A stretch of 43,769 nucleotides of DNA, taken from a virus. Numbering within the stretch: position 1 is the stretch's first letter; each line of letters opens with the position of its first letter. The position numbers and the translations under genes were made by a program. Below, in pieces: positions 1 through 33,073 of the stretch. The stretch is from positions 1 to 43,769 of IMG/VR virus record IMGVR_UViG_3300048050_000047. The stretch is one strand, 5' to 3'. The notes beneath the pieces are model-generated. The model was not told where the DNA came from. It was given only the letters and a program-made list of their open reading frames with translations, and did no database searches.

Positions 1-78
1 GGACACGCGGGGGTCCCCGACAACGAACGCTGCGACGCACTGGTGAGGGCCAAGATCGCCGAGTGCAGAAAGCTGTAA
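1..78 (+). CDS. rnhA: Ribonuclease HI, C-terminal fragment (partial)
   Basis: The first frame is open from base 1 and encodes 25 residues before TAA. It begins GHAGVPDNERCDALV, which matches the last conserved block of RNase HI (the G-H-x-G-x-P-x-N-E-R-C-D segment holding the flexible catalytic-loop histidine and the N-E-R-C-D helix start). RNase HI removes RNA from RNA-DNA hybrids in the cytoplasm. Only the tail of the gene is in the window. It ends six bases before a convergent truncated tRNA gene, so it most likely belongs to the host flank rather than to the phage. A phage-borne RNase H is the alternative. Confidence 0.8.
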   Translation, partial: GHAGVPDNERCDALVRAKIAECRKL

Positions 79-83
79 GTGTT

Positions 84-125
84 TGGGACCAGTGCGGCTC
101 GAACGCACGACCTGCTGCTTAGAAG
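84..125 (-). tRNA. 3' half of tRNA-Arg(UCU), truncated at the anticodon loop (prophage att site)
   Basis: Read on the minus strand, the segment gives an anticodon loop CTTCTAA (anticodon TCT), the 3' anticodon strand GCAGC, a five-base variable region AGGTC, a perfect T arm (GTGCG, loop TTCGAGC, CGCAC), the 3' acceptor strand TGGTCCC and discriminator A. The 5' half is missing. The bases upstream of the loop pair poorly with GCAGC, no D arm follows, and no matching 5' acceptor strand GGGACCA is seen. A tRNA gene cut in the anticodon loop is a classic integrase crossover product, so this is probably attL, with the intact tRNA restored at the other end of the prophage outside the window. CCA is not encoded. 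Confidence 0.7.
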
Positions 126-326
126 GCGGACAACGGCAGCATATTGGTACCTTTTATTGTCATGCATTATTAGACGCATAGTATTCTATTAGTATATATA
201 AAATGATTTTACGAATGCAAGGCATAAGACGCTAATTTTATCCATGAACGCCGTATTTGATAATAGACAAGCGTTTCGGGTACCATAGCGGGTACCATAC
301 TGATTAAAAAACCACGACCTGCTGCT
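106..326. repeat. 14-bp direct repeat of the att-core segment (106-119 and 313-326)
   Basis: CACGACCTGCTGCT occurs at 106-119 inside the truncated tRNA-Arg and again, identically, at 313-326, 207 bp away in AT-rich DNA. The repeated part corresponds to the 3' anticodon-stem strand and variable loop of the tRNA, the usual place for an integrase core. The second copy could be a secondary or ancestral attachment site, or the edge of an earlier insertion. The roughly 190 bp between the copies has no credible gene. Confidence 0.6.
277..299. repeat. Tandem CGGGTACCATA repeats near the attachment site
   Basis: The 11-mer CGGGTACCATA is present twice with a 12-bp period (277-287 and 289-299), and GGTACC occurs once more at 147-152 next to the tRNA fragment. 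Repeated short sites near an integrase core suggest arm-type binding sites for integrase or excisionase. This reading is inference; no protein for it is visible here. Confidence 0.4.
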
Positions 327-385
327 CTTTGGAAAAACCGTTCAAATTTGAAGTAGAAAATTCCCGGCTCGACGGTGCTTCAATC

Positions 386-402
386 GTCCGATATACTGAG
401 AC
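386..402. promoter_or_regulatory. Degenerate GTCCGA palindrome at the start of the ribbon-helix-helix gene
   Basis: GTCCGATATACTGAGAC has the perfect left arm GTCCGA and a right arm differing at two positions from TCGGAC, with the same 5-bp spacer as the palindromes at 26543, 29956 and 33431. It ends two bases before ATG 405, so a bound protein would interfere with this gene's own expression. The match is partial and may be coincidental. Confidence 0.35.
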
Positions 403-404
403 TC

Positions 405-800
405 ATGGCGACCAAGCGCATCTACCCTCCCCAGGACAGAGACTCGCGTCCAAAGATCGACGTACCGATGAGCGTTAGGCTCTTCGACCTGATAAAGCAG
501 TCCGCCCATGAGCACGACCGCGGCGTATCGAATGAAATCAGGTGCGTGCTCTGGGAGCACTATACTGGTGAGATCGTGGAGGAAATTCCGGATTTCTCCG
601 GTAGTTCCCTTCCTGGAGATCCAAATTATTCACCCGCCGCCGGCCGCGCCCGTGTAGATGTCTCGATGACATCCTCCCTGCGATCAACAATCCAGGACCA
701 TGCCAGGCAAAGCGGCAGATCCCGCAGCGGCGAGATCCGCGTGATTCTATGGTCGCACTATCTCGGAACGATCCCGGGGGATGACTTTTCGGGGTATTAG
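405..800 (+). CDS. Tandem ribbon-helix-helix (Arc-like) DNA-binding protein
   Basis: The 131-residue protein contains two copies of an Arc-type ribbon-helix-helix. The first is about residues 18-55 (KIDVPMSVRLFDLIKQSA, then EIRCVLWEHY) and the second about 80-120 (RVDVSMTSSLRSTIQDHA, then GEIRVILWSHY). Each copy has the short strand, helix A and helix B with the N/GEIR-V-LW signature. Fusing two copies would give a single-chain pseudodimer. I chose ATG 405; an in-frame GTG at 375 would add ten residues, and neither has a strong ribosome site. Such proteins are usually repressors of phage or toxin-antitoxin genes. It is the only clearly recognisable sequence-specific regulator in the left region and the best candidate for binding the GTCCGA-type palindromes, but that link is inference. 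Confidence 0.75.
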   Translation: MATKRIYPPQDRDSRPKIDVPMSVRLFDLIKQSAHEHDRGVSNEIRCVLWEHYTGEIVEEIPDFSGSSLPGDPNYSPAAGRARVDVSMTSSLRSTIQDHARQSGRSRSGEIRVILWSHYLGTIPGDDFSGY

Positions 801-1147
801 ACGATATCAAGGGGGCCCGGCTTGCGGGGCCGGCCACCCTTCTTGCCGTTCTCACGGCTGGATGCGGTCTTGGCCTTAGACTTTACCGATCCGCCCTTGC
901 GGCCAAGGAGGGCTGCGGGAGATGAAAGCGCTTCAAGTCCGTCCCGGTATCCAAGCCCGCGCTGCGCTCTTGAATCATCCAGATCATCCGCCAGCGACAA
1001 CCACAATTCATGTTCGGCGTCGGTCCCGAAACTCTCCCCATGGTGGGCGCGCCGCAAGCCTCGCTCATACCCCATCCAATACTCTGATTTTTGCGGTTCG
1101 ACCGACTTCATTATTCTTGCGCGGTTCATTTCCGATTCAAATCTCAT
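797..1147 (-). CDS. Conserved hypothetical phage protein with basic GRKGG/KKGGRPRK tail
   Basis: The 116-residue protein starts at ATG 1147 behind a good ribosome site (AGGAG, 8 bases upstream). Its stop overlaps the 3' end of the convergent ribbon-helix-helix gene. The N-terminal two thirds are acidic and aromatic (YWMGYERGLRRAHHG, HELWLSLADDLDD). The last 30 residues are Lys/Arg/Gly-rich (LLGRKGGSVKSKAK, NGKKGGRPRK), a tail often seen in small phage proteins and likely to contact nucleic acid. It lies just downstream of the 84-residue gene in the same direction, so the two may form a leftward transcript. The function is unknown. Confidence 0.65.
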   Translation of the reverse strand: MRFESEMNRARIMKSVEPQKSEYWMGYERGLRRAHHGESFGTDAEHELWLSLADDLDDSRAQRGLGYRDGLEALSSPAALLGRKGGSVKSKAKTASSRENGKKGGRPRKPGPLDIV

Positions 1148-1224
1148 GATATTTTACTCCTGAGTGCGGACAAAATCTTTTTCGTATCTTTTCTGTTTAA
1201 AAAAATGCGACAAATCGTCGCATC

Positions 1225-1479
1225 TCAATAATATTCGGTAATCATTTCTATGATTGAGGTTATTTTCGCATCAACCTCATCTGATGTACCAGTAAAAACA
1301 TAGTTTTCGCCTTTTACAAATGACGATCCGCTTACAAACATTTTCTTGTATCCGAACTTTGTAAAATCATTACCCATTGATTTCTCAACCGGGATAATGC
1401 TAGCAAATTCAGCGCCAACCGCTTTTGCACGAATGCCGCGAACCATACTGCTGTCTAACGTAATCGGGCTCATTTTCAT
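1225..1479 (-). CDS. Small hypothetical protein (84 aa), first gene of leftward transcript
   Basis: ATG 1479 has a clear ribosome site (GGAG, 8 bases upstream). The 84 residues are a compact alpha/beta-looking sequence (MKMSPITLDSSMVRG, FVKGENYVFTGTSDEVDAKI) with no membrane segment. The coding DNA is much lower in GC than the late genes, suggesting a different origin. Upstream lies a promoter-like region with two direct repeats of AATC-N2-TTAGGTT, so it is probably regulated. I do not recognise the family; an immunity-region or anti-host protein is possible but unsupported. Confidence 0.55.
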   Translation of the reverse strand: MKMSPITLDSSMVRGIRAKAVGAEFASIIPVEKSMGNDFTKFGYKKMFVSGSSFVKGENYVFTGTSDEVDAKITSIIEMITEYY

Positions 1480-1504
1480 CTTGTATCTCCTCTCTCACTG
1501 TCTG

Positions 1505-1556
1505 AGTATAATATATACCCAATCGCTTAGGTTGTAAATAGCTAATCAGTTAGGTT
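1505..1556 (-). promoter_or_regulatory. Leftward promoter region with two operator-like direct repeats
   Basis: Two copies of a 13-mer lie 23 bp apart: AATCGCTTAGGTT (1521-1533) and AATCAGTTAGGTT (1544-1556), identical at 11 of 13 positions; the second is flanked to form CTAA-N4-TTAG. On the minus strand a TTACAA -35-like box (1537-1532) precedes a TATATTATA stretch usable as -10, just upstream of the 84-residue gene. The first repeat lies over the promoter, as expected for repressor control. Confidence 0.5.
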
Positions 1557-1937
1557 TCTACTATTTTCGTCGATTTTTTACAGTTTTTTCACTCTTCACA
1601 AACCTTCTGCAACTAAAAATTACAACTAGTTACAAGGACATTACAAAAATAATTCCTTATGGCATAACGAATGTTGCAGAAATTACGAAGATTACAAACT
1701 CCGGGACATATCCCCTGCGTATGCGTATGTGTGTGCGTGCGTGTACGCGCGTGTGCGCGCTCACGCGCATGCGTACGTATATGTATGTATGTAATGTAAT
1801 GTTGTAATATATCTATCTATCTATCTATCTATCTCTTATTATACAAGGAATTAGGGATGTTGCAAAAAAGATTACAAAGGGGTTACAACGGTTACAAAAT
1901 TAACAACTTGATATGATAGGATCTAAATCCCTATTCC
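1557..1937. other. AT-rich intergenic region with phased TTACAA boxes, Z-DNA-prone tract and ATCT microsatellite
   Basis: No credible gene is present. TTACAA occurs in the same orientation at 1620, 1630 and 1641 (steps 10, 11), once at 1692, and at 1872, 1883 and 1892 (steps 11, 9), so two triads are roughly in helical phase. Between them lie a 45-bp alternating purine-pyrimidine tract (1716-1760) continuing at 1762-1793, then six perfect ATCT units (1811-1834). A longer motif, ATGTTGCA followed by GATTACAAA, is also repeated (about 1671-1698 and 1858-1879). The region separates leftward and rightward genes and could be a replication origin, a cooperative operator or a switch. A candidate rightward -10 TATGAT is at 1912-1917. 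Confidence 0.6.
1811..1834. repeat. ATCT tetranucleotide microsatellite, six units
   Basis: Six uninterrupted ATCT units directly follow the alternating purine-pyrimidine tract and lie about 120 bp before the first rightward late gene. Tetranucleotide tracts change length by slippage, so spacing between the flanking TTACAA triads could vary between phage copies. The tract is non-coding, so any effect would be on promoter or origin geometry. Confidence 0.85.
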
Positions 1938-1955
1938 TTGACGTATTCTATAGCC

Positions 1956-2708
1956 ATGGAGCAGATCCAGGTCACAGTAAAATCGAATCTCGCCATGCAG
2001 CTCGCGCTTGACCCGAAGACTTATACCAAGGTCGCCGGCCAGGCGCTCAATGACATGGCCTTCGCGTTTCAGAAAGCTGCACCAGGAGAAGTTTCAAAAG
2101 GACATCACGTCCGCGGGTCGCTGGTTGCTCACTCCTTCGGTGTAGCGAAAAACGAAGGACGTAGCCTGGCAGAAATTCAGGCTACGGCATTTTCAATTGC
2201 TAGGGATCGATTCTCGGGATGGACTGAGGAATACGAAAAGCGCGAACCCCTACGAGACAGGTCATTCACCCTTTCGGCTCGCAAAGGTGACATCGACAGG
2301 ATTACCGAGAAGACAGCCCGAGCTGGAATTGAGATGCCTGCACCGAAGGATTTTTCAGGATTGACTATGGCGGCCATCATTTCCATTATCGGGCGCCATC
2401 CCTCCACAACCGCCAAATCGAACGGTCTTTTCATTGTGGGCGGCGGACATGGTTATACGCCTGGAATATATAAAATAGCTAATGCGCAGAAGCTTAAACA
2501 CAACAAGAAGGGTATGGTCCGCATAGGCATGGGAACTAATCCTAATGCCGAAGAAGCTCGCTATCCTCACATCACCATGTTACAGATGCTCAAGCGCCCA
2601 CCCAAGGCAAAGCGCAAGCTATACGACTGGGCTAAAGGCGCTGAGAATAAGGCGTTCTCGAATGAGGAGCGCATATGGATGCGAGCCTTTGATAAGGGAG
2701 GATTATAA
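1956..2708 (+). CDS. Conserved phage protein of unknown function, possibly a virion morphogenesis factor
   Basis: The 250-residue protein begins MEQIQVTVKSNLAMQLALD; an in-frame TTG at 1938 would add six residues, and neither start has an obvious ribosome site. The sequence is basic and has no membrane segment. Its N-terminal layout (beta strand, then a long helix, LNDMAFAFQKAAPG) and middle RDRFSGWTEEYEKREP-type block resemble a family of structural or morphogenesis proteins in tailed phages, but I cannot name it with certainty. It is the first rightward gene and is separated from the terminase genes by 222 bp of hairpin-rich DNA. The lower-GC flanks suggest it could be a separately acquired cargo gene. 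Confidence 0.55.
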   Translation: MEQIQVTVKSNLAMQLALDPKTYTKVAGQALNDMAFAFQKAAPGEVSKGHHVRGSLVAHSFGVAKNEGRSLAEIQATAFSIARDRFSGWTEEYEKREPLRDRSFTLSARKGDIDRITEKTARAGIEMPAPKDFSGLTMAAIISIIGRHPSTTAKSNGLFIVGGGHGYTPGIYKIANAQKLKHNKKGMVRIGMGTNPNAEEARYPHITMLQMLKRPPKAKRKLYDWAKGAENKAFSNEERIWMRAFDKGGL

Positions 2709-2930
2709 TATTATAATATATATAATTAAAATTAAAACAGTGATGCGATAATCACAACTAAATGCGATACACGGCACCACCCTGCACTATATGCCAAGGT
2801 ACTGTGGCGGGTGGTGGGGTATAGCAAGCGCTGCAGGTCGCGAAGCCCTTTCTTTCGCACCTGCGGGGCCTTGTAACATGTAACATAATCCTAGGGTCTG
2901 GCCAGCCCCGCCCTATGCAACACTGGTTAC
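2709..2930. other. Hairpin-rich intergenic region before terminase, candidate cos/packaging site
   Basis: The first 35 bases are nearly pure A/T. Then come two ATGCGATA repeats, a hairpin with arms ACCACCC (2776-2782) and GGGTGGT (2809-2815), and a second hairpin pairing GCAGGT-C-GCGAA (2833-2844) with TTCGC-ACCTGC (2854-2864). A TAACATGTAACAT doublet and the late element at 2886-2897 follow. In phages with lambda-type terminase the cos site lies next to the small-subunit gene, so this is where packaging would start. No cohesive-end sequence can be proved from one genome. Confidence 0.4.
2886..2897 (+). promoter_or_regulatory. Late regulatory element copy 1 (11/12 match to TTATCCTAGGGT)
   Basis: TAATCCTAGGGT ends exactly 33 bases before ATG 2931 of the small terminase gene. 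TTGTAA lies 15 bases upstream of TAGGGT, so the sequence can be read as a -35/-10 pair with TAGGGT as an unusual -10. The two other copies (5847, 11237) have the same distance to their start codons. Confidence 0.55.
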
Positions 2931-3716
2931 ATGCCACGAATCAACGCTAACCAGGCTGAGCAAAAATACAAAATCGCCCGCATGACTGTAGGCCGCTGGA
3001 TCAGAGCCGGGAAGATTGCCGCCGACGGCGACCGAGAGGTAGATGAGGACGAGCTTGTCGCACTCATTGAAAAATCTAAAGCGCAGAAGCCGCACGCCAC
3101 AATTGCTGAGAAAAAATCCCGTCGTCCCATCGTCGGGTTCACTCTCCCAAAGAGCCCTGAAGTATCGCCTTCCGTCCCCCCTCCAGCGGTTCATAAAGCC
3201 CCCGCCTCCAAGAAGCCAAGCTCTTCGTTTCCCCGCGGGCGGGATGCCCTTCCTGTGGGACTCGTAGTAGGAGGCGATCTCCTTCCGGGGCGCCAGGGCT
3301 CATCTGGTATTGAGCGTCCCGACTCGGACGTGTCCGTCCAGACAAAAGAGGCCGATCTCGGCTGGAAACGATATCGAGCCCGCAACGCCAAGCTGCTCTA
3401 CGAAGAGAAAAAACTCAAGCTGCTTCGCATTGAAGCAGTCCTCCATGCTTTTAGCCAAATTAAAGCCGCCTTGGATTCTTTGCGCACCTATGGCGAGCGC
3501 GAGGGGCCGGCTCTCCTTGCTTTCGCCCGGGATCCAATCACCACCGAAGCTGCCATGATCTCTCGGCTGAATGCCGATCAAGACCGGAACGGTCGCGACA
3601 TCATCGACGCAGTTTCCCGCCAACTTATTGCGCTTAAAAAAGAGTCCAAGGAAGCCGCTGATTCTGAGCCGCTACCCGAGCCCGGATCGGATCCTGAAAC
3701 GGACGGCAACTCATGA
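2931..3716 (+). CDS. Terminase small subunit, Nu1-like
   Basis: The 261-residue protein starts with a helix-turn-helix (residues 5-30, NQAEQKYKIARMTVGRWIRAG), the layout of lambda Nu1, which binds cos DNA. A proline/serine-rich linker (about 65-135) follows, then a charged coiled-coil C-terminal half (WKRYRARNAKLLYEEKKLKLLRI) suited to oligomerisation and large-subunit contact. The stop overlaps the start of the large terminase gene (ATGA). It is longer than Nu1 (181 residues) because of the linker. No ribosome site is apparent, unlike the genes further down, and the 5' leader would be short if the element at 2886-2897 is the promoter. Confidence 0.8.
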   Translation: MPRINANQAEQKYKIARMTVGRWIRAGKIAADGDREVDEDELVALIEKSKAQKPHATIAEKKSRRPIVGFTLPKSPEVSPSVPPPAVHKAPASKKPSSSFPRGRDALPVGLVVGGDLLPGRQGSSGIERPDSDVSVQTKEADLGWKRYRARNAKLLYEEKKLKLLRIEAVLHAFSQIKAALDSLRTYGEREGPALLAFARDPITTEAAMISRLNADQDRNGRDIIDAVSRQLIALKKESKEAADSEPLPEPGSDPETDGNS

Positions 3717-5731
3717 CCTCCGACATCGTACTACCTCGCGGCTGTTCTGTTGACGACTGGAACCGATCGATCGACGATCTGCTTGAGCTCGTACCAACGC
3801 TCTGGCCCGAGATGCCAAACCTCCCACCCTCGGCTTACGCCGCCCGCCACCGCATCATGCCCAAACCATTCGCGGGGCCCTGGTCGAACGAGCGCACGCC
3901 CTACCTGGTCGAGATGATGGACGACATGGGGCCTCAATCTCCCATCCAGGAGGAGTATGCCCTGAAGGGACATCAGATAGGGTTCACGGCCGCAAGCGAG
4001 AACATCCTCCTGTACTGGATGGACTACAATCCCACGTATCTGCTCTATGTTTCCTCAACTGACGATGCGCTGAAAAAGTGGATGTCCGAACGTCTGGAGC
4101 CGGCCATCGATTCAGTCCCTGGCTTGCGGGAGAAGTTTATAGCTCCGGCCAGCGTCGCCCGCGGCGGCTCCCGCCAGACTGGTGATACTACCAGGTCGAA
4201 GCAGTTCATTGGCGGTGCTCTCGACATGGCTTCGGCCCAATCTCCTGCAAGCCTGGCATCGCAGACGAAGCAGCTTGTCATCTTCGATGAGATCGACAGA
4301 GTCCCTGCCTTGCTTAAAACGGGCGAGGGCAGCTTCCTTGATGTCGGCAAGGCCCGCACCGATTCCTTCGGGAAGCGTCGTAAAATCCTTGGTTTTTCAA
4401 CCCCCACAACCTATGAGTCGTCCCTGATTTGGCAGAAATACCTTGCGGGAGATCAGCGCAAGTATCTTGTCCCCTGCCCCCATTGTGGCAGAGACCAGGA
4501 GCTTGTCTTTTCTTTCGGGGAGATGCGCCACGGGCTCAAGGGCGACTTCAAGGCCGGAGAGTTCCAAAAGGCTTTCTACATATGCGAATTTTGCGGAGAG
4601 CCTATTTTCGACTACCACAAGCCCCGTATGCTATCTGCAGGGCACTGGGAACCTACCGCAAGATCCTGCTATCCCGAATACCGAAGCCGACACATTTCAA
4701 CCCTCTACGCGCCCCCTGGTATGACCGACTGGGATGGGCTCTACCGAAAATATCAGGAAGCTCAGGCCACGCCTGACGGTATGCGGACCTTTACTAACTT
4801 GGAGCTTGGCCTCCCCTACCAGGAAGCGGGATCCAGGCCGAATCTCAAGACGGTCATCTCGCTGCGAGGTGGGTACCACGAAGGCCAAATCCAGCAAGGA
4901 GCCCTTTATCTCACCATGGGATGCGACGTCCAGCGCGGATCGAATACTGATACTAAACTTCCGCCCCGTATTGAGCTCGAGGTCCTCGCCCACGGCGCCG
5001 GCTATCGTTCCTGGTCCGTCTGCTACAAGGTTTTTGCAGGAGATCTCGGGGATCCCTATGAGGGTGCCTGGGAAGCGATGTACCAATGGGTATGTGGAAA
5101 CCCCACCTTCTTGCGTGCTGACGGTATGGGTTTCCCTGTTTCGATGGGCTTGGTTGACTCCGGCGATGCTGCCGACGGCATGGATGAGATCATCGCCCGA
5201 TTCTGCGGCCGCATCGTCAACCTCTATCCTTCGAAGGGCTTCAACTATCTCAAGGTGCAAGCTCGAGAAAAGGGGGATATCCCTGGTAAGCAGGATTTCA
5301 AGCGCTATCGAAAAGCGATTATGGGGGGGACCGGTCTTCCCCTCTTCGAGATCTCCACGAACTACTTCAAGGACGCGCTCTATAATCGGCTCGAAATCAA
5401 ACGCCAGCCCGTGGATCCGCAGCGCGCTGGGTTCTGCGACTTCCCCACAGAATACGGTGACGAATACTTTGCACAGCTCACCGCGGAGGAAAAGCTCACG
5501 TCGGGAGAGAACAGCGGGGCCTACCGAAAGACTCGATCCAGGAACGAGTCACTCGACTGCCGGATCTACGCCATGGCCGCCGGCGAAGCCTATCTTGATA
5601 CTCTCGTCGAACAAAAGAAAAACGAGGCACGAGCGGCTCAATGGACAAGACTGGATATCGATAAGATCGACCATAGATTTATCCTGCGCTGGCTGGAAAA
5701 TCTCTGCGCATGGCGTGGTGTACAACCATAA
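3713..5731 (+). CDS. Terminase large subunit, lambda GpA family
   Basis: The 672-residue protein is the packaging motor and cos-cutting nuclease. It shows the GpA-type Walker A-like segment KGHQIGFT (85-92), Walker B QLVIFDEID (187-195) with Asp192/Glu193, and a coupling motif near FSTPTT (229-233). A zinc-type insertion with Cys255, Cys258, Cys291 and Cys294 follows. The C-terminal nuclease domain has acidic residues Asp405 (GCDV) and Asp482 (LVDSG) and the family's closing LDCRIYAMAAG. Length is typical (lambda A has 641 residues). It is translationally coupled to the small subunit and followed by a 160-bp gap with a hairpin and the strongest copy of the late element. Confidence 0.95.
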   Translation: MTSDIVLPRGCSVDDWNRSIDDLLELVPTLWPEMPNLPPSAYAARHRIMPKPFAGPWSNERTPYLVEMMDDMGPQSPIQEEYALKGHQIGFTAASENILLYWMDYNPTYLLYVSSTDDALKKWMSERLEPAIDSVPGLREKFIAPASVARGGSRQTGDTTRSKQFIGGALDMASAQSPASLASQTKQLVIFDEIDRVPALLKTGEGSFLDVGKARTDSFGKRRKILGFSTPTTYESSLIWQKYLAGDQRKYLVPCPHCGRDQELVFSFGEMRHGLKGDFKAGEFQKAFYICEFCGEPIFDYHKPRMLSAGHWEPTARSCYPEYRSRHISTLYAPPGMTDWDGLYRKYQEAQATPDGMRTFTNLELGLPYQEAGSRPNLKTVISLRGGYHEGQIQQGALYLTMGCDVQRGSNTDTKLPPRIELEVLAHGAGYRSWSVCYKVFAGDLGDPYEGAWEAMYQWVCGNPTFLRADGMGFPVSMGLVDSGDAADGMDEIIARFCGRIVNLYPSKGFNYLKVQAREKGDIPGKQDFKRYRKAIMGGTGLPLFEISTNYFKDALYNRLEIKRQPVDPQRAGFCDFPTEYGDEYFAQLTAEEKLTSGENSGAYRKTRSRNESLDCRIYAMAAGEAYLDTLVEQKKNEARAAQWTRLDIDKIDHRFILRWLENLCAWRGVQP

Positions 5732-5891: not shown

Positions 5892-6224
5892 ATGAGCGAT
5901 CTGTCGGATAGCGCAAACCCGAATATCAGCCCCGGCGTTGGGCAGCAGATGTCGAGCCTCCCGGCCACTGTCTATGGCCGCTATGCTTCCGAGATCGTAT
6001 TTTACACTACCCTCATCCAAACCCTCGAAGCCCAAATCACCGCCATCGCCGCCTCCACCGCCGAGGAGTACGACATTACCTCGGGTGACGGCCGTCATAA
6101 GGTCAAGCGTCGATCGCTCCAGGAAGTCATCGCCGACCGCAACTCCGCCGCCGCCCAGCTTCGGTTCTATGAGCAGAAGAACTATGGCCGCGGCATAATG
6201 AACCTGAACCTGAGGCGCAAATGA
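5892..6224 (+). CDS. Small head-joining protein in the gpW position
   Basis: The 110-residue protein sits between terminase and portal, where lambda has gpW, the protein that closes the packaged head for tail attachment. It has a helical centre (YASEIVFYTTLIQTLEAQITAIAAS), a central hairpin-like DITSGDGRHKVKRRSLQEVI and a C-terminal helix with a basic tail (NLNLRRK), matching the helix-beta-helix order of gpW-like proteins. It is longer than gpW (68 residues) at the N-terminus. The stop overlaps the portal start (ATGA). Assignment is mainly by position and secondary-structure feel. Confidence 0.6.
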   Translation: MSDLSDSANPNISPGVGQQMSSLPATVYGRYASEIVFYTTLIQTLEAQITAIAASTAEEYDITSGDGRHKVKRRSLQEVIADRNSAAAQLRFYEQKNYGRGIMNLNLRRK

Positions 6225-8020
6225 GCCTAGCTGACGTCATCTTCCCTGGCCGTGTAGCAGCTATTCGGGCAGAGGAACAGGCCAGCGCCCAGGCCACTCT
6301 CGCTCGAGAGCATGCCCAGGCTGCCCAGGCCATCCAGGGCCTCCGGGACTATGTCCGTAAGGCCGTCACCCAGCCTACGCTCAACCCCGGTGCAACCTAT
6401 GGTTCTGCGGGCGCCCCAGGCGCGTGGGCGTCCTGGACCCGATCGAACGGCGCCAAGTGGCCCGGCGGCATGGGGAACCCCTACGGTGGCCTTTCACTCA
6501 ACCATTTCGCTCTCAGACAACAGGCCCGCGACGTCTATCACGATTCGACACAGGCCCATGCCATGGTGGACCGCTTTGCCGATACAACCGTCGATTCGGG
6601 GCTCACACTTGAACCGGAGCCCGATTACGAAATGCTCGGCATCACGCAGGCTCAGGCGGAGGACTGGCGTTCCCGAGTTCGATCGAGCTTTCACCTATGG
6701 GCCATGTCGAAGCTTCAGCACCGCAGCAAACAATACAACTTCTACCAGGCACAGCACCTCTACGCCATCGAGTCCGAGCGCGATAACGACCAGTTCACAC
6801 GGCTGTACTACAACTCGTCCTCCGACCTTCTCAACCCCCTCCAATTTGAGCTCCTCGACGCCAACCAGATCCGCGGTGACGCCATTACGGCGACGAACAT
6901 CATCGGGAAGTTCCCCGACGGAATCACGCGCAACCCGGACGGATCGGAGAAGTCATACGACATTTGGGTCCAGGATGGAGACTATCAATTCGAGACCGTG
7001 ACCATCCCTCGGATCGGCGAGAAGTCTAAGCGGGTCTTCATGCTCCACGGCTTCGTCCCCGCTTACGCTGGCCAGGGCCGGGGCTATGCCGGGATAGGCG
7101 AGATCGTTCAGGAATTTGAACTCATCGCCGACTTTGCCCTGTCCCATGAGAAGCTTGCCGTCAATCAGAGCCAGATGGTCATGTACGTCAAGCCGAGCGA
7201 CAAAAACCCTGCATCCAACCCCTTCGAGTCCCTTGGGCAGACGCCAATGGGGCCGTCCGTTATCCAGGCGGGTGCCCCCGGCTCAATGTCGGGCGTCGCC
7301 GTCAACGGCGTCACGAGTTCCCCCCTTGGCGCAGGCGTCGCCTTCACCCCCATCGAGGAATCCGTCCTCAAGACCCCAGGCTCAATGGTTGTGGCCAACC
7401 TTGCCGAGGGGGAATCCCTCGACACTCTGAGAAGTACCGCACCGTCTCCGCAGTTCGAAGCGTTCCTAGATGGCATGATGTCCTACGTCTGCGCTAGCCG
7501 CGGGATGCCTCTCGAAGTCCTCAAGATGGCTTTCAACAACAACTACAGCGCATCAAGGGCTGCGCTTCTCCTTTTCTGGCGCGTAGTCCAGATGCGCCGC
7601 GAGCATATCGCCGCTGACCTCCTCGACCCCATCTACGAGATGTGGCTCTCCGAAGAGATCGCGGCCGGCCGTGTGACCTGCCCCGGATGGCAGGACCCCC
7701 GCTTGCGCCGCGCGTGGCTCGCCTGCCGGTGGAACGGTACACCGATGCCGAATATCGACCCGAGCAAGTCTGCCCAGGCTGATCTTCTCTACGCCAAGAT
7801 GGGCGCCCAGACCTTCGACGATATCGCCCGGAACTTCAACGGCAGCTCAGGGAAGGCCAACCGCGCCAAGATGGCCACGGAGCTCAAGGAGCTCGAGGCC
7901 TCAGGCATCAACCCCTTCAACTCCACGGGAGCCATCGACCAGGCAGATGATGAGTCTTCCGAGCCTGTACGTCCGAAAAGCTCGGACAAGAAGCAAACGA
8001 AACAAGGAGCGCAAGAATGA
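6221..8020 (+). CDS. Portal protein, lambda GpB family
   Basis: The 599-residue protein forms the dodecameric channel at one head vertex, through which DNA enters and leaves. An N-terminal helical segment is followed by the family pattern: HFALRQQARDVYHDSTQAHAMVDRFADTTVDSGLTLEPEPD (about 90-130), the wing and stem region (about 160-300), and the FEAFLDGMMSYVCASRGMPLEVLKMAFNNNYSASRAALLLFWRVV block (about 410-455), highly characteristic of lambda-type portals. The C-terminus is charged and disordered-looking. Its start overlaps the preceding stop and its stop overlaps the next gene, so translation is coupled. Confidence 0.95.
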   Translation: MSLADVIFPGRVAAIRAEEQASAQATLAREHAQAAQAIQGLRDYVRKAVTQPTLNPGATYGSAGAPGAWASWTRSNGAKWPGGMGNPYGGLSLNHFALRQQARDVYHDSTQAHAMVDRFADTTVDSGLTLEPEPDYEMLGITQAQAEDWRSRVRSSFHLWAMSKLQHRSKQYNFYQAQHLYAIESERDNDQFTRLYYNSSSDLLNPLQFELLDANQIRGDAITATNIIGKFPDGITRNPDGSEKSYDIWVQDGDYQFETVTIPRIGEKSKRVFMLHGFVPAYAGQGRGYAGIGEIVQEFELIADFALSHEKLAVNQSQMVMYVKPSDKNPASNPFESLGQTPMGPSVIQAGAPGSMSGVAVNGVTSSPLGAGVAFTPIEESVLKTPGSMVVANLAEGESLDTLRSTAPSPQFEAFLDGMMSYVCASRGMPLEVLKMAFNNNYSASRAALLLFWRVVQMRREHIAADLLDPIYEMWLSEEIAAGRVTCPGWQDPRLRRAWLACRWNGTPMPNIDPSKSAQADLLYAKMGAQTFDDIARNFNGSSGKANRAKMATELKELEASGINPFNSTGAIDQADDESSEPVRPKSSDKKQTKQGAQE

Positions 8021-9513
8021 ACATAAACGGCAGATTCGATGGCCGGAATATCATTACCAAGGGCCGCTGCGCCGCGACGCTCACCTCCGGCTTCGTTGAT
8101 GTCGGTGGCGCCGCCCTCCTCCTTGACCAGCAGGCCTTGCTGGGGATCCCCGCGAAGCTGGGCATCTCCAGCTCGAGCGTAAGAGATTCGGCTGCACAAA
8201 CCTTGTCCGCAATAGGAGGGACCTCGCGCTCCTGGTACGGCATCTGCTGCGACTTGACGGGGGCTCTGTGGGCTACGGTTAACGGCGGGGACATCTACAG
8301 GTGCCCCCCCGGATCGACCACCTTCACCGCGATCGGGGGAACCTCGCGAAACTGGTACGGGATCTGCTGCGATCCGTCGGGAACCCTGTGGGCTACGGTC
8401 GTCTCTGGGGACATCTACACATGCCCGGCGGGATCGACCACTTTCACCGCGATTGGGGGGACCTCTCGCACCTGGAGCGGGATTTGCTCCGACCTGGCGG
8501 GGAATATCTGGGCCACGGTCAACGGTGGGGACATCTACATGTGCCCGGCCGGTTCGACCACCTTCACCGCGATCGGGGGCGCTTCTCTAGGTTACGCCGG
8601 GATCTGCTGCGATCCCTCGGGCAACCTCTGGGCTACGGTATCTGGCGTCGCAATCTACAAATGCCCGGCGGGTTCGTCGACGTTTACTTCGATCAGTGGG
8701 ACGTCTCGCGGATGGTACGGCATCTGCTCCGACCCCTCAGGGAATATCTGGGCGGTAGTCAACAGCGGGGACGTCTACAAGTGCCCGGCAGGCTCGACCA
8801 CCTTCACCGCGATAGGGGGCGGTCCCCGGTCATGGTGGGGCATCTGCTCCGACCTGGCTGGGAATATCTGGGCCTTCGTCAACGGCGGCGACATCTACAC
8901 GTTCCCCGGATTCGGTGCCCGCACGCTTTTCCTTCTTGGCCTTGGGGCGACAGGACAGTTTCAGACAGAGACCATTGCCCTGAATGGCCAGAGCGTTGTC
9001 ACGACGGTTAATACCTGGTACCGCCTCTTCTTCGCTCGGTGCTTGACGACGGGCACGGATCTTGCAAATGCCGGAGACCTCTACATCGTCAAGACAGGGA
9101 CTGGCGGCACGTATACCAACGGCGTCCCCGGGGTATTCACCATCGCGTCAGCCATCCTGAAGATCCTCCTTGGCGCTACGGACGGGGGAAGTACCTGGTA
9201 CACGACGCCGTTTTATGACCCTCGGCCCGTTAAGATCCCGGCACTCCTCTGGCAGGTCGACCAGATAGATGTCTCCATCAATACCGCTGCGGCTGGCGGG
9301 ATAATCGTCCTTCTCGCGCGAGACCTCGCCAACAACGAGGCCCCCATCCGCGAGGAAGCGTTCTATCTGCCCTCGACGGGGGGAACGTTCTCCTTCGATC
9401 TGAGGAAGTACGAGCTCATCTACGGTCCGAATACGGACATCAGGGTCCTGGTCATGACCAACACCGCCGGCGCCGTATCCGCTGGAATGTCGATCACCAA
9501 GCTCAACTACTAG
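8017..9513 (+). CDS. Propeller-like repeat virion protein (six 40-residue repeats)
   Basis: The 498-residue protein has about 60 N-terminal residues that read like a decoration-protein start (GRCAATLTSGFVDVGGAALLLD). Residues 69-308 are six near-identical 40-residue repeats of the form TSR-x-WYGICCDPSGNLWATV followed by GGDIYxCPAGSTTFTAIGG. The 120-bp DNA repeats span about 8221-8940. About 190 unrelated C-terminal residues follow, rich in beta strands. Repeats of this length with W/G/D turns resemble blades of a six-bladed beta-propeller. It is coupled to the portal gene (ATGA), so it is probably a structural or host-contact protein of the particle. Two to three Cys per repeat is unusual. 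Function is inferred. Confidence 0.6.
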   Translation: MNINGRFDGRNIITKGRCAATLTSGFVDVGGAALLLDQQALLGIPAKLGISSSSVRDSAAQTLSAIGGTSRSWYGICCDLTGALWATVNGGDIYRCPPGSTTFTAIGGTSRNWYGICCDPSGTLWATVVSGDIYTCPAGSTTFTAIGGTSRTWSGICSDLAGNIWATVNGGDIYMCPAGSTTFTAIGGASLGYAGICCDPSGNLWATVSGVAIYKCPAGSSTFTSISGTSRGWYGICSDPSGNIWAVVNSGDVYKCPAGSTTFTAIGGGPRSWWGICSDLAGNIWAFVNGGDIYTFPGFGARTLFLLGLGATGQFQTETIALNGQSVVTTVNTWYRLFFARCLTTGTDLANAGDLYIVKTGTGGTYTNGVPGVFTIASAILKILLGATDGGSTWYTTPFYDPRPVKIPALLWQVDQIDVSINTAAAGGIIVLLARDLANNEAPIREEAFYLPSTGGTFSFDLRKYELIYGPNTDIRVLVMTNTAGAVSAGMSITKLNY

Positions 9514-13175: not shown

Positions 13176-14396
13176 ATGCCCACCCCCATCGTACTGGATT
13201 TCGTCTCTCGCCAGATGGCGAATCTCTTCGACGAGAAGAATATCATCGACCTCCCGACCGCAGGTCAGGCGCTCTTCGGAGACCCCCGCGACGGCTCCAT
13301 GACGGTCTTCTCGCCCAGCTCCCTCGATGTCGACATCGAGATCATCCGCGGCAACGAGCGCCTCGCCGCACTCGTGCCCCGCGGCGGCGTCGGCCGATTC
13401 CTGGGAACTCTCGCGGCGACCCAGCCCCATCAGGACATCCAGGTCGGTATCGAGTCCTACTTCACCCGGACCTTCCCCCTCGCCGAAGAGGAAGTCAACA
13501 TCACGGCCCATCAGATCCTCTTCCGCGTTCCCGGAGAAGGCCCGTTCGAAGGCCGTGCCCGCACCGAGCGTTTCCGGACGCTCGCGACCAAGGGATACCA
13601 CGAGGCCATGCGCCGCCTCATCCGCCTCGACGAGTATCTCGCCTGGCAGTCCCTCCTCACCGGCAAGCAGCCCTCAATCCTTGGCAACACGGCGGATGTC
13701 TACGACTTCCGCAGGAACACGAACCTCATCGTCACGCCGACGTACACGTGGTCGAACGCCTCGGGCGTCCCTCTCACCGACATCGACGCGATGTGCGACA
13801 AGATCCGTGCCTACGGCAAGATGGAGGCCGACACCATCATCCTCGGAGGCTCGACCTTCCAGGCGCTGACCCAGGCCGTGCAGCTCATCACCAGCCAGTA
13901 CGGCAACAAGCTCTACTACAACCTGGTCGAGCTCGACAAAAACTACAATGCCGACGGCAAGTACAACAGGCTCATCGCCGGCGGCATGAAAGCGCGCGGA
14001 ACCCTGCAAACCCCCAAGGGCTACAACCTGACGATCTTCACCTACATCCAGGGCTATACGAACACCTCCGGCACCTTCACGAAGTACATGACGGACAACT
14101 CGGCGCTCATCACCGCGATGAACGCCCGGTCCGACCGGTACTTCGGCCCGCCCGAGCGCCTGCCCATGACGAACCACGACCTCCAGCTCTTCATGGAGCG
14201 CATGGGCTTCAACCCCACCCTGCCCCAGCTCCCCATGAACGTCATGGCCGGCGACGGCGTCATCCTTCCCGAGACGTTCTTCGTCGACATGTACGATGCG
14301 GGCGACCTGAAAAAGACGACCCTGAGAGCGCAGCACGCTCCCATCTTCGCCACCACCATGACCGACTGCTACGGCGTTCTCAACACCCTGGCGTAG
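13176..14396 (+). CDS. Major capsid protein, lambda gpE family
   Basis: The 406-residue protein starts after GGAG at ATG 13176. It matches the gpE-type capsid pattern: an N-terminal arm, IIRGNERLAALVPRGGVGRF, PHQDIQVGIESYFTRTF (about 85-105), EGRARTERFRTLATKGYHEAMRRLIRLDEYLAWQSLLTG, and a late MERMGFNPTLPQLPM-type segment. It forms the HK97-fold shell. Length is somewhat more than lambda E (341). Neighbours (decoration, scaffold, portal) agree. Confidence 0.92.
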   Translation: MPTPIVLDFVSRQMANLFDEKNIIDLPTAGQALFGDPRDGSMTVFSPSSLDVDIEIIRGNERLAALVPRGGVGRFLGTLAATQPHQDIQVGIESYFTRTFPLAEEEVNITAHQILFRVPGEGPFEGRARTERFRTLATKGYHEAMRRLIRLDEYLAWQSLLTGKQPSILGNTADVYDFRRNTNLIVTPTYTWSNASGVPLTDIDAMCDKIRAYGKMEADTIILGGSTFQALTQAVQLITSQYGNKLYYNLVELDKNYNADGKYNRLIAGGMKARGTLQTPKGYNLTIFTYIQGYTNTSGTFTKYMTDNSALITAMNARSDRYFGPPERLPMTNHDLQLFMERMGFNPTLPQLPMNVMAGDGVILPETFFVDMYDAGDLKKTTLRAQHAPIFATTMTDCYGVLNTLA

Positions 14397-15581: not shown

Positions 15582-16228
15582 GCATGATGTTTCAGACTGC
15601 AAAAACCGCGCTCCTTGCGCTGCTCGCAACCGGCGCTGCGTCGGGGGGCTATTCCGTTGTTGGCTCCGAGATGCAGTCCCACGACGCCGACGACATCGCG
15701 AACCTCTCGCACGTCGAAGTCACCTATGAGGACGGAGATTTCCCCAAGTCTCGCGGTTCCATGGGCTCTGGACCTTCCGCCCATGACGTCGTCTACCAGG
15801 TCAAGCTTCTCGTGGTTTCGGCGTCAGCCGTCGACCTCGCCACACTCAACAATCCCTCGGCTACCCGAGCACAACTAGCGACAGCTCTCGCGCAGAACAC
15901 AAAAGCCGCCGACGCCGCAGAGACCAAGATGGACGCCCTCATTTCTTGCCTCTGGAATCTCATCATGCAACCAGCGAATCAGGCCTTTGGCCTTACGGGG
16001 CAAGTTGCAAATCGCTGGATCCCGCATATCCAGAAGGATCCAGTTGGAACCTCGGGGGCCTACGCCTCTCAGACGGCCTCGCTCAATGTCTCCTGCACAG
16101 TAATGGAGCAGCCCACCACCGTCGTCGGAGTCCAGGGCAGAGCCATCGTCGACAACGTCATCCTCACCTCCGATAAAACCGGAATCAACCTCGATAGTGC
16201 CGTCCAAGGCACGAAGGCAGGCACCTAA
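15578..16228 (+). CDS. Probable tail terminator/completion protein
   Basis: The 216-residue protein, from GTG 15578 overlapping the previous stop (ATG codons follow at once), lies directly before the tail sheath gene. Residues around 40-75 (HVEVTYEDGDFPKSRGSMGSG) and 80-130 (VYQVKLLVVSASAVDLATL) form a strand-helix pattern seen in tail-terminator-like proteins. A hydrophobic N-terminal stretch (TALLALLATGAASGG) is unlikely to be a signal here. Function is inferred from position; Mu-like tails have small proteins of this kind upstream of the sheath. Confidence 0.45.
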   Translation: MSMMFQTAKTALLALLATGAASGGYSVVGSEMQSHDADDIANLSHVEVTYEDGDFPKSRGSMGSGPSAHDVVYQVKLLVVSASAVDLATLNNPSATRAQLATALAQNTKAADAAETKMDALISCLWNLIMQPANQAFGLTGQVANRWIPHIQKDPVGTSGAYASQTASLNVSCTVMEQPTTVVGVQGRAIVDNVILTSDKTGINLDSAVQGTKAGT

Positions 16229-17799
16229 TGTCCATCACGAATTCCTCGCTCGCAGCCGGAGTTGGCATCGGCATGCAGCAGACGGTCTTCCAGCCATCCG
16301 CACAGAATCTGCCGCGCAAGATGCTTGTCATCGGCACGCCCCTCGCCTCTGCCACTGGGTGGACCCCCGCACAGCCCCAGCTCATTCTCAACCCTGCCGA
16401 CGGCGCCGCGCGCTATGGTGCGTCGTCTTGCCTCGGGCGTCTTCTGGCCGCGGCCTTCGCCGGGACAAACTACGGCGTCCCCATCTACGCCTTCCCTGAG
16501 ACCGAGACCGGAACCGCCGCAGTCTACACCACAACCTTCACGGGGACTTCGACTGCGGCGGGGATCCTGTACCTTTACGTCGCGGGCACCCTCTACCAGG
16601 TCCCCATTCCCTCAGGGACCGCAGCCACTGCCATCCCTGCCCTCGCCATCGCCTACCTCAACGCTGACCCGTCCTGTCCGGTCACCGCATCCGGAACCGC
16701 CACGCTCATTTGCACCGCAGACTCCAAGGGCATTTGGGGCAATGGCATCACGATCGCTTATAACCAGACCCCCGGAGACCAGTTCCCCGCGGGCATCACC
16801 GCCGCGACCGTCGTCGCCACGACCGCAGGCGCCGGCGTTCCTGGTGTCGCCGCCGACATCGCCAACGGCCTCGGATCTTCGTCCGCTGCCAACCAGTACC
16901 AGTTCACGGACATCGTCCACGGCTACCTCCAGGACGCCACAACCATCGCCGCTCTCTCGACCTACAACGGTGTCGGCAACGTCCTCGCGGGCTGCTACGA
17001 CAACATCGTTGCCCGCCCCTTCCGCGTGCTCATGGGAGACACTCTGTCGACCGGATCAGCGGCCCTCACGGCTCTCCTGGCGATAGCCAGCGCCGCCACC
17101 ACCGACCGCACCAACGGGATCGTCGCTGTCCCCGGTAGCCTCACCCACCCCTCAGAACTCGCCGCTATCGCCATGGGTCTCATGGCCAAGGTCGCCGCGA
17201 ACAATCCCGCCCAGTCCTACGTCGGGCAGATCCTCACGGGAGTCGACCCTGGATACGCCTGCGCTCAGGCAGGGAACCGGTGGACAAGCGACTTCAACAA
17301 CCGGAATACGGCCGTCTCGGGCGGAATTTCTCCGACCCTGACGCTGGGATCTACGGTCGTCCTGCAGAACGTCGTCACCTTCTACGGTGCTAACCAGTCC
17401 GTCCCTGTCAACTCCAACATCTACCGCGAGATGCGCAACATCGCGCTCACCCAAAACATCCTCTATAGCAAGGGGCTCAACTACGCCGCCGCCAAGTGGG
17501 CTGGATACACCATCGTGGCCGATGCGTCGACCGTGACCGATCCCGTGGCGAAGCTCCTTGTGCGGGACGTCAACGCCGTCATCGATGACGAAATCGCCAT
17601 GGCGAAATACTTCCAGTCGAAGGGCTGGATATACACGGCGGACTTCACCATCAAGGCCCTCAAGACCGCTGGTGCTGTCTCCGTTCGCTCGGGCGGCGAC
17701 GGGTTCACGATTTCCGTGCCCTACATCCTTTCCGGAATTGGAAACGTCATCAACGAAATGAACTCGATCGATACCTCGATCGCGGTGCTCACCAACTAG
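16228..17799 (+). CDS. Contractile tail sheath protein, Mu gpL-like
   Basis: The 523-residue protein has the Mu gpL layout: an N-terminal strand region (SLAAGVGIGMQQTVFQPSAQNLPRKMLVIGTP), repetitive beta-rich inserted domain (about 80-200, with GTAAVYTTTFTGTST), the core helices, and a C-terminal region (LNYAAAKWAGYTIVAD, FQSKGWIYTADFTIKAL). Sheath subunits surround the tube and contract during infection. The start shares its base with the upstream stop (TAATG). Its presence defines a myovirus-type tail. Tube, gpN and gp45-48 homologues follow in Mu order. Confidence 0.9.
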   Translation: MSITNSSLAAGVGIGMQQTVFQPSAQNLPRKMLVIGTPLASATGWTPAQPQLILNPADGAARYGASSCLGRLLAAAFAGTNYGVPIYAFPETETGTAAVYTTTFTGTSTAAGILYLYVAGTLYQVPIPSGTAATAIPALAIAYLNADPSCPVTASGTATLICTADSKGIWGNGITIAYNQTPGDQFPAGITAATVVATTAGAGVPGVAADIANGLGSSSAANQYQFTDIVHGYLQDATTIAALSTYNGVGNVLAGCYDNIVARPFRVLMGDTLSTGSAALTALLAIASAATTDRTNGIVAVPGSLTHPSELAAIAMGLMAKVAANNPAQSYVGQILTGVDPGYACAQAGNRWTSDFNNRNTAVSGGISPTLTLGSTVVLQNVVTFYGANQSVPVNSNIYREMRNIALTQNILYSKGLNYAAAKWAGYTIVADASTVTDPVAKLLVRDVNAVIDDEIAMAKYFQSKGWIYTADFTIKALKTAGAVSVRSGGDGFTISVPYILSGIGNVINEMNSIDTSIAVLTN

Positions 17800-30399: not shown

Positions 30400-30559
30400 T
30401 CTCATCAATTTTGGTATTTCCCCTGAGCATATCCAGCAAGTCAGCGCGTTGAATTTCCGTAAACGCGATCAGTTCGAAAACATCAAAGCCATCGTTTTCT
30501 CGGTTCATCCGGATATGGCCCTCGTCGTCCTCTTCGATTGTTACTGTCCACTTTTTCAT
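30362..30559 (-). CDS. Small acidic hypothetical protein (65 aa), last gene of the early operon
   Basis: ATG 30559 follows AAGGAG by six bases and overlaps the stop of the ParB-like gene (ATGA). The 65 residues begin MKKWTVTIEEDDEGHIRM and include a helix EIQRADLLDMLRG. It looks like a small soluble alpha/beta protein. An in-frame upstream Met (30634) would lie inside the ParB gene and was rejected. The last bases overlap the convergent nuclease gene. Function unknown. Confidence 0.6.
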   Translation of the reverse strand: MKKWTVTIEEDDEGHIRMNRENDGFDVFELIAFTEIQRADLLDMLRGNTKIDEIKRTATDRSPGV

Positions 30560-31203
30560 GTGCTCTCCTTTTCGTCCGGGAATATCTTCCCGAGGCATTC
30601 CAGAACCTCTTGCCGGACGGCGACGTCCTTGCAAACGATCCGGACCGTGTATCCTCGGTATTCGATCTTGATCTTCTTGTTCTTCCTAAACATGCCGTAG
30701 AGCCCGTCGCGCCTGGCTCTTCCTAGTATCTGGCCAGCAGTAAGATTCTTCACCTCTGTGACATCGGCCATGTTTGAGGCGTACTTCGCCGCGCCGTACT
30801 GGTTGGCGACCCAAGCGACCGGCCTCCCGATGCGGCGAGCGATCCCGGCGTTCGTGAGTCCTGGGGTCTGCTCCTTCAGGCGGTCGAAGGTGTCCACGAG
30901 TTCCATGGCGCTCATTTGCTTGCGGTGCGTGTTCTCGACGAGCTGGATATAAATCCTCTCGTCCTCGGAGATGTCGGACCTGATCACGCAAGGGATGGTC
31001 TCGTCTCCGTGCATTTTCATGGCCAGGAAGCGCCGGTGCCCCGAGATGATCTCGTACCGGCCCCCGACCGGCCGGACGATGATCGGCTGTAGGATATCGA
31101 AGCGGTCGATGCTTTCAGCGAGATCCGAAAGCTCGGTTTCCGACTCCTCTCGGACGTTGTCCTTCTTGTAAATGAGATCGATAGGAATATTCCCCAATTT
31201 CAT
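30556..31203 (-). CDS. ParB/Srx-fold protein (short form)
   Basis: The 215-residue protein has an N-terminal ParB-like domain: IPIDLIYKKDNVREE, LAESIDRFDILQPIIVRP, YEIISGHRRFLAMKMHGDETIPCVI and YIQLVENTHRKQMSAMELVDTFDRL. A helix-turn-helix (LTNAGIARRIGRPVAWVANQYGAAKY, about 115-140) follows. GHRR is the nucleotide-binding box of the ParB CTPase family. Its C-terminus (FRKNKKIKIEYRGYTVRIV) is basic and could bind DNA. It starts overlapping the helicase stop (ATGA). Role may be segregation, replication control or a ParB-like nuclease; no ParA partner is visible. Confidence 0.75.
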   Translation of the reverse strand: MKLGNIPIDLIYKKDNVREESETELSDLAESIDRFDILQPIIVRPVGGRYEIISGHRRFLAMKMHGDETIPCVIRSDISEDERIYIQLVENTHRKQMSAMELVDTFDRLKEQTPGLTNAGIARRIGRPVAWVANQYGAAKYASNMADVTEVKNLTAGQILGRARRDGLYGMFRKNKKIKIEYRGYTVRIVCKDVAVRQEVLECLGKIFPDEKEST

Positions 31204-32831
31204 GCTATCTCCTCCTCCGCTTGCTCGCGGTGCTCTCTAATTTCTTTTGCCTTGAACCAGGCCCAACCGGGCTTAAAACCACGTACTTTCGCGATCGCGT
31301 GAAGCAGGGGAACGTTGGCCGTTATTCGGCCATCACAGACTTTCCAGTAGGCCCACATCGGCTTGTACCCGAGCTCGTCTGCCACCTTCAGGAGATCCTC
31401 GACGGCGCTGATGTCGATCTCGATCGCGTCCTTGAGGGCGTCAACCGCGCGACCGATGCGGTCCTGGACGTCGCGCTTCTCCTCGGGATCAAGCGTGTTC
31501 CGGGTCTTTAGAGCGGTGCGCTCTTCTAGCGTGGCATCCACGACCACAAGTTCAGCGCGGCGGGGATCTCCTTCCGACTCGGGCTTCAAGTTGCAGCCAG
31601 CGCAAGAGGCTTTGCCGCAGTACTGGTAGTCGAGGTACGGACACTGCTTTAACGGTATGTCACGCTTGGCCCGTTCACGCTTAAAGCGGCCGTAGAAGTT
31701 CCAGGCTAGATTTTCGAGGTAGAATAATGGAACGCCAGGAGCTGAGGGATCGGTATGCTCTTGGACAAGATTAGCATGGTCAAAGAATAGCGCCTCGTCC
31801 TTGCCTTCAAAAGGACGGAGAATCCGACCGACCATCTGGAAATACAAACTCCTAGATAACGTTGGCCTAATCGAAGCGCCGTATTCCACCCTGGGGACAT
31901 CGAGCCCGTAAGTGGCAATTTCGCAATTTGTAAGTCCATCGATCTCTCCCTTTTTGAGCCCTTCAACCAGGGTCCGGCGCTTGGCCTCGGCCATGGTTCC
32001 CTCAATGCAAAAGAACTTGAACCCTGCCTCGCTGAACCGTTCGGCGGTCTCGTAGGCAGACTTTACCGAACGGCAGAAGATCAGGGCGCTCTTGTTCGTT
32101 CCGTCGGGGCGCTTGCCATATTTTTTGTAGTAGTCCACCACTTCGCCATAGACATGGCGCTTCTGAAGGAGGGCCTCGAGCTCGTCGGCATCGAACTCGG
32201 TGCCTTTCCGGTGGATGTCCTCCAGGCCCTCGATGGGCGGGGCAAAGTACCGCAGGGGCGAGAGGAACCCGCGCTCTGTGAGCCAAGGGATGGATGGGCC
32301 GTAGTGGATCCCGTCATAGACTTCGGAGAGTCCGCGACCGTCGAGACGCTCAGGTGTCGCCGTCACCCCTATGACCTTGCAGGTTCCAGGAGCGGCCGCG
32401 ATGATGCGGATCTGCGCATCGAGGGCTATGTGACACTCGTCGAAAATGATGAGGTCGGGCCAATTTTTGATTTTATCCAGGCGCCGGAGGAGCGTGTCCT
32501 CGGAGACAACATGGACCTTAAAAGCCCTGGATTCCTGGCAACCTGCGGAGATTGATCCATGAGGCACTTTCCATCGGGTAAGGTGATCTGACCCCTGCAG
32601 GAGGAGTTCGTTCCGAGGCACGACAAACCAAACGCGGCGGTCGCGGCCGAACGCGCTCGCGATGATCTCGGCCCCGATAGGCGTCTTCCCTGCCCCTGTG
32701 GCGAGTTGGAGGCAGACGGCGCGATTGTGCCGTGTCTCAGTCTGCATGGTCTCGAGGTTGAGAACATCGTGTGTGCCCCGCAGCAATTCCCGAAGTGCGT
32801 CGACGGCCTGTGACTGGTAGTCTCTCAGCAT
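31200..32831 (-). CDS. SF2 DEAD/DEAH-type helicase with C-terminal zinc cluster
   Basis: From ATG 32831 the 543-residue protein has the SF2 helicase motifs: Q-like start (MLRDYQSQAVDAL), GAGKT (46-50), DECH (131-134), TATP (157-160) and QMVGRILRP (332-340). A C-rich segment (Cys397, Cys405, Cys410, Cys413) follows, then a helical tail with a repeated motif (GYKPMWAYWKV and GFKPGWAWFKAKEI). It unwinds or remodels DNA during phage replication or recombination; the family resembles Res-subunit-like phage helicases. The ATG overlaps the stop of the HNH-like gene. Upstream in-frame Met at 32954 lies inside that gene and was rejected. Confidence 0.88.
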   Translation of the reverse strand: MLRDYQSQAVDALRELLRGTHDVLNLETMQTETRHNRAVCLQLATGAGKTPIGAEIIASAFGRDRRVWFVVPRNELLLQGSDHLTRWKVPHGSISAGCQESRAFKVHVVSEDTLLRRLDKIKNWPDLIIFDECHIALDAQIRIIAAAPGTCKVIGVTATPERLDGRGLSEVYDGIHYGPSIPWLTERGFLSPLRYFAPPIEGLEDIHRKGTEFDADELEALLQKRHVYGEVVDYYKKYGKRPDGTNKSALIFCRSVKSAYETAERFSEAGFKFFCIEGTMAEAKRRTLVEGLKKGEIDGLTNCEIATYGLDVPRVEYGASIRPTLSRSLYFQMVGRILRPFEGKDEALFFDHANLVQEHTDPSAPGVPLFYLENLAWNFYGRFKRERAKRDIPLKQCPYLDYQYCGKASCAGCNLKPESEGDPRRAELVVVDATLEERTALKTRNTLDPEEKRDVQDRIGRAVDALKDAIEIDISAVEDLLKVADELGYKPMWAYWKVCDGRITANVPLLHAIAKVRGFKPGWAWFKAKEIREHREQAEEEIA

Positions 32832-33040: not shown

Positions 33041-33073
33041 AAGAACCTCTCACCATACAACTCGATTTATTTC

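Follow-up and report, generated by a model that had tools for sequence, protein, structure and literature searches.

Iteron origins of self-loading helicases are already known. In phage P4, ori1 and crr carry type I iterons, short boxes in both orientations which are recognised by alpha, a fused primase-helicase; we know of no Z-prone core at either site. At SV40-type origins, paired inverted sites seat two hexamers around a melting core. The closest described systems are the SaPI/SCCmec origins (SaPIBov1 Rep, SaPI5 PriRep1, Cch and Cch2), in which multiple short iterons lie near an easily opened tract and the initiator is a helicase with a C-terminal DNA-binding domain (PMC7581432). In SaPI Rep and Cch2 this domain binds short iterons that lie directly downstream of the protein's own gene, while the SV40-type initiator, unlike them, carries its DNA-binding domain at the N-terminus (PMC7581432). 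Origins are unannotated in the majority of temperate phages whose primase-helicases are fused or paired. The IMG/VR record IMGVR_UViG_3300048050_000047, analysed over its whole length of 43,769 bp (hereafter the window), contains an array of short boxes at approximately 1600–1900 which is very probably the phage's iteron-type replication origin, served by its own primase-helicase (36252–39170).

The phage record and its intergenic array

By gene content the record belongs to a contractile-tailed phage, with a gpA-type terminase (3713–5731), portal (6221–8020), major head protein (13176–14396) and tail sheath (16228–17799). Late genes run rightward, and the replication and recombination genes run leftward (30556–43298). 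A DNA similarity search against known phages returned no match, while protein queries against bacterial genomes gave none for a 256-aa ORF and distant ones only for the terminase. Two weak ribbon-helix-helix (RHH) matches, Arc-like and FitA-like, fall in ORF 375–800, a possible single-chain tandem RHH regulator; ORF 8017–9513 encodes a repeat protein, with about six 120-bp tandem repeats at 8200–8906; and two ParB/Noc-like proteins are encoded at 30556–31203 and 34294–36000, with no ParA among the ORFs examined. The left end (1–135) resembles the C-terminus of RNase HI followed by a tRNA 3' half, although neither ARAGORN nor Rfam confirmed the tRNA; together with the short repeat CCACGACCTGCTGCT at about 301 (301–325), it is a possible prophage attachment site. 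A tRNA-like T-arm, GGGACTCGAACCC, lies near the right end (43362–43390), where no tRNA gene is predicted. Ahead of the terminase small-subunit gene (TerS) is a probable cos site with a AAGGTACTGTG block common to the window (2795–2930) and the related loci L002 (2650–2780), L023 (3340–3480) and L024 (905–1045). The boxes after this block are of TGTAACA type in the window and L023 and of GTTGACG/GTAAACC type in L002 and L024, in agreement with the two types of helix-turn-helix at the TerS N-terminus.

The putative origin region (1480–1955) is intergenic and noncoding, with 36% GC against 58% for the genome. On its left is a leftward ORF (1225–1479, minus strand) with a promoter-like TTTACA-17-TATATT at 1538–1510, and on its right the first rightward late ORF (1956–2708, plus strand), which has a weak phrog_4688 match (minor tail protein) and is a neighbour kept in relatives. 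TTACAA occurs on the plus strand as a left triad at 1620, 1630 and 1641 (1620–1646), as a single box at 1692–1697 just left of the Z-prone core, in a place whose equivalent is filled in cultured phages, and as a right triad at 1872, 1883 and 1892 (1872–1897), accompanied by TTGCAA at 1860 and TTAACAA at 1900. A preliminary description of the sequence had listed these seven positions with steps of 9–11 bp, and a motif search recovers all of them, the steps measuring 10 and 11 in the left triad and 11 and 9 in the right; by arithmetic, such spacings are compatible with one helical face. It had overlooked a third cluster, of inverted TTACA boxes at 1790, 1795 and 1803 (1790–1807, minus strand), and with this cluster the full order becomes +1620, +1630, +1641; +1692; core (1716–1793); −1790, −1795, −1803; ATCT; +1872, +1883, +1892. 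Seven plus-strand copies of TTACAA in 1480–1955 compare with a shuffle mean of 0.26, and neither seven copies nor a triad was reached in any of 5000 dinucleotide shuffles of the region; either flank taken singly gives P of about 2e-4. A blind search for k-mers over all 43.8 kb puts the array region first, as the strongest repeat cluster of the window.

The Z-DNA-prone core (1716–1793) consists of alternating purines and pyrimidines with one break, dividing it into the 45-bp run noted earlier between the triads (1716–1760) and a 32-bp run (1762–1793); the window has no further alternating run of 14 or more. The core is also palindromic (arms 1724–1751/1746–1773), and the middle of the array is bracketed by inverted repeats: TAATTCCTTATGGCATAA at 1650–1667 pairs with 1836–1853, and a perfect 9-bp repeat joins 1605–1613 to 1673–1681, both absent from the preliminary description. 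A AATTCCTTA motif is found in several arrays with unrelated boxes (window 1650–1667/1836–1853, L016 3951, L083 1041). The six ATCT units already described correspond to an ATCT/TATC microsatellite at 1810–1834 (6.2 copies, 100% match); for a comparison of copy number the same phage was sought in other samples, and no second isolate was found. By nearest-neighbour energy, no 100 bp of the window are less stable than 1781–1880, a putative DNA-unwinding element. No DnaA box (TTWTNCACA) was matched near 1480–1960. GC skew has no clear switch at the array and is uninformative here, because it is confounded by gene direction. Rfam on 1–4000 gave nothing but microRNA-like matches to the GT tract, which were below threshold and were discarded as low complexity.

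Distribution and order of the arrays among phages

Relatives were gathered by a portal-based scan (30 loci) and a primase-helicase-based scan (17 loci), and the 600 bp leading up to the first late ORF were given a motif-blind repeat score, with microsatellites and tandem repeats masked and significance defined as a score above all 200 shuffles. A significant array is present in 9 of the 11 phages with the window's primase-helicase, the window counted among them, and in both of the DUF5906-helicase phages that keep the same late genes (L033, L034). None is present in three relatives (G006, G013, G004) which have the same late genes and match neither helicase. On the comparison of 9/11 with the helicase against 0/3 without, the array tracks the helicase and not the late operon. 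G016 and G024 (masked bases), both helicase-bearing, and G011 also have no significant array. The boxes themselves vary by phage (TTACAA, AAGTGTAAA, GTATTATAAC, GTAACA, AACATAATA, AAAGGTAT, ATATTACA, AATAATACG, AAGGTAAT), those of AACATAATA forming two triads, stepped at 9 bp, on either side of an (AAT)n tract, and the position of the ATCT repeat is taken by other low-complexity tracts. TTACA is kept in L002 and L024, and an exact search for the right-triad pattern matched L002 alone.

L002 is the nearest relative (terminase 64% identical) and in the same place carries plus-strand boxes at 1557/1570/1575, an 18-bp alternating run, minus-strand boxes at 1674/1679/1684 as the counterpart of the window's inverted cluster, a TATATATCTATATATCTATC tract and plus-strand boxes at 1791/1799. 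Its eight copies of TTACA in 373 bp were reached in 0/2000 shuffles, a result that passes only the prespecified-motif test, as L002 fails the motif-blind one.

In L033 and L034 the array starts directly 3' of the DUF5906 helicase gene. Twelve cultured phages, picked solely by homology to this type of helicase, include 10 with a significant array no more than 400 bp 3' of the helicase gene; the two array-negative ones, ctUtU524 and Vibrio H1, have the most distant helicase homologs. In 9 of the 12 the longest alternating run of the retrieved locus falls inside those 400 bp, where 0.76 would be expected. A DNA-only scan of viral contigs for TTACAA triads, carried out independently of the helicase, yielded, among the matches listed, four dense arrays with long ORFs that adjoin primase-helicase or polymerase-helicase genes: L144 (DUF5906 gene ending at 1937, array at 1941–2234), L156 (DUF5906), L127 (VapE/PriCT_2) and L175 (NrS-1-polymerase type). 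TTACAA triads by themselves are not diagnostic: among the matches listed, several dense arrays adjoin portal or peptidase genes (L167, L142), and at least one, L152, is a long tandem array. At L175 2100–2600 the entire box array is duplicated head to tail, with copies about 315 bp apart, as in a doubled origin.

The order of three (or four) direct boxes, an alternating CG/TG core, two inverted boxes and three direct boxes recurs with the unrelated boxes TTACAA, TGTTGGGT, TCAGACA and GGTTA, and is common to the window, L002, H4907, LPPA56, pAN, SC_9, Turba, PG1 and KT1. One box is common to five Pseudomonas phages, which are not independent, so that about six or seven independent lineages are represented. 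Relative to the core, the window has TTACAA/TTACA boxes at −96, −86, −75 and −24 (plus), −4, +1 and +9 (minus) and +78, +89 and +98 (plus). Halomonas H4907 has TCAGACA at −96, −88 and −76 (plus), +19 and +27 (minus) and +72, +84, +96 and +104 (plus), and Pseudomonas LPPA56 has TGTTGGGT at −114, −105, −94, −29 and −20 (plus), +66 and +75 (minus) and +132, +143 and +163 (plus), with one additional inverted box at −76. L033, L034, L144 and S1 keep the inverted flanks and differ in the outer right cluster.

The primase-helicase and the proposed function of the array

The proposed initiator (36252–39170, minus strand) has TOPRIM (DUF6371) and AAA+ helicase domains by Pfam and a predicted C-terminal winged helix; a CHC2 zinc finger is matched by Pfam in an ortholog. 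An AlphaFold model of the helicase and C-terminal part has middling confidence: its pLDDT is 71.7, parts of the ATPase core fall below 50, and TM is about 0.4. Within this model, residues 421–474 are predicted as strand-helix-helix-strand-strand, typical of a winged helix. The top solved structures matched by Foldseek are SCCmec Cch (5dgk, E 2.7e-7), SaPI PriRep1 with dsDNA (7pds) and SaPIBov1 Rep (8tch), with pox D5/E5 as a further structural match. The gene does not adjoin the array in the window, and would lie about 6 kb from it if the genome closes to a circle.

The preliminary description had offered three readings of the array, namely a replication origin, a looping operator and a slippage-tuned switch between leftward and rightward transcription. 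The first is well supported by the comparison of phages: the array accompanies the putative self-loading initiator helicase and not the late genes, and its order is kept in unrelated phages. Helicase-box binding, melting and replication start, together with any B-to-Z transition or extrusion of the core, are steps that we infer. Copies of the primase-helicase would use their predicted C-terminal winged helix to bind the TTACA(A) boxes. Two helicase assemblies in opposite orientations would be seated by the direct clusters to the left of the core together with the inverted cluster to its right, and the outer right triad would supply additional binding sites. The helicases would then open the weak AT/ATCT tract (1781–1880), the alternating core acting as a torsionally soft stretch, and by loading themselves would start bidirectional copying.

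The other two readings find no support. Relatives do not all keep the divergent gene layout: in L002 a strong rightward terminator-like hairpin precedes the array, with no leftward gene and no divergent pair. Other low-complexity tracts take the place of ATCT in relatives, and the idea that ATCT drives phase variation was dropped as unsupported. An operator or late-promoter function in general, in which a phage regulator such as the two-domain RHH protein (375–800), or an OmpR-like host regulator, acts on the phased boxes to control divergent promoters, is improbable as the explanation of the array. It would suit the placement of the array, which has a leftward ORF and its promoter-like site on one side and the first late gene on the other; direct repeats at 9–11 bp suit several regulators, and RHH-like ORFs lie beside some arrays (window, L081, L083). 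However, G006, G013 and G004 have the same late genes with neither helicase nor array, G013 even retaining the RHH-like ORF at that place, and the arrays of L016, L017 and L033 have no RHH gene beside them. In L033, L034, L144 and the cultured phages it is a replication gene that precedes the array. Because the late genes have the array on their promoter side, it may nevertheless have a regulatory role, also alongside replication.

Arrays of short repeats are the centromeres of some plasmids, and the two ParB-family proteins of the phage would allow a partition site bound by one of them or by the RHH protein; this is highly unlikely, since no ParA accompanies them among the ORFs examined, the boxes are not parS-like palindromes, and G014 has a strong array with no ParB match. 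Still less credible is a cos or pac site, at which the terminase small subunit would recognise the DNA for packaging. The array does lie 1 kb upstream of the gene for this subunit, just before which there are TGTAACA boxes too (2871–2931), but a separate cos-like block at 2795–2930 has boxes of its own, and the boxes before TerS switch with its helix-turn-helix type while the upstream ones remain TTACA in L002 and L024. On this box/TerS comparison the array boxes were rejected as terminase sites. That the array is slippage-prone, low-complexity DNA without function, its boxes coincidences or by-products, is equally improbable: slippage does give rise to microsatellites, and among the matches listed many viral contigs have TTACAA triads, yet arrays persist after tandem-repeat masking (0/200 shuffles) and the box order is conserved with unrelated letters.

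Beyond the replication origin itself, a wider proposal is put forward tentatively and could well prove wrong. The alternating CG/TG core may have been selected as a functional element of phage origins that form a widespread class not yet described. In this class inverted iteron clusters would surround a Z-prone core, and a B-to-Z or cruciform change driven by supercoiling would help a self-loading hexameric helicase to open the DNA, the box letters evolving freely and the order and core being kept.

Comparison with known systems

In the open-access full-text literature no paper was found that links Z-DNA or alternating tracts to iterons and origins, nor was a letter-independent order with an alternating core across phages of several hosts found in the open literature searched; the recurrence of the Z-prone core is surprising. 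The order makes origins locatable from sequence despite unrelated box letters, and a search for it pairs every origin with its own initiator. A role of Z-prone DNA in origin opening is directly testable in cultured phages, for example Halomonas H4907 and Pseudomonas pAN.

Iteron plasmid origins of the RK2/pSC101/R6K type resemble the window in their direct repeats beside an AT-rich unwinding element, but use a non-helicase Rep with DnaA and DnaB, whereas the proposed initiator here is the helicase itself and no DnaA-box-like match is present in or near the array. SV40 is an unrelated virus, and the paired inverted sites, melting core and hexameric helicase of SV40-type origins are likenesses by analogy only. 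Phage P4 shares short iterons in both orientations and a primase-helicase, with another box and another primase type. As in SaPI/SCCmec/D5-type origins, the window has a short box repeated in direct and inverted orientation beyond chance, an easily melted tract between or beside the iterons and a phage-encoded helicase of the same fold. The predicted winged helix at the C-terminus of this helicase may be the counterpart of their DNA-binding domain. An origin directly downstream of the helicase gene, which is usual though not strictly defining, is seen in L033, L034, L144 and 10 of the 12 cultured phages and not in the window. Unlike the SaPI/SCCmec origins, the putative origin of the window is remote from the helicase gene, at the boundary of early and late genes, and its iterons are combined with an inverted inner cluster and a long core of alternating, Z-prone sequence.
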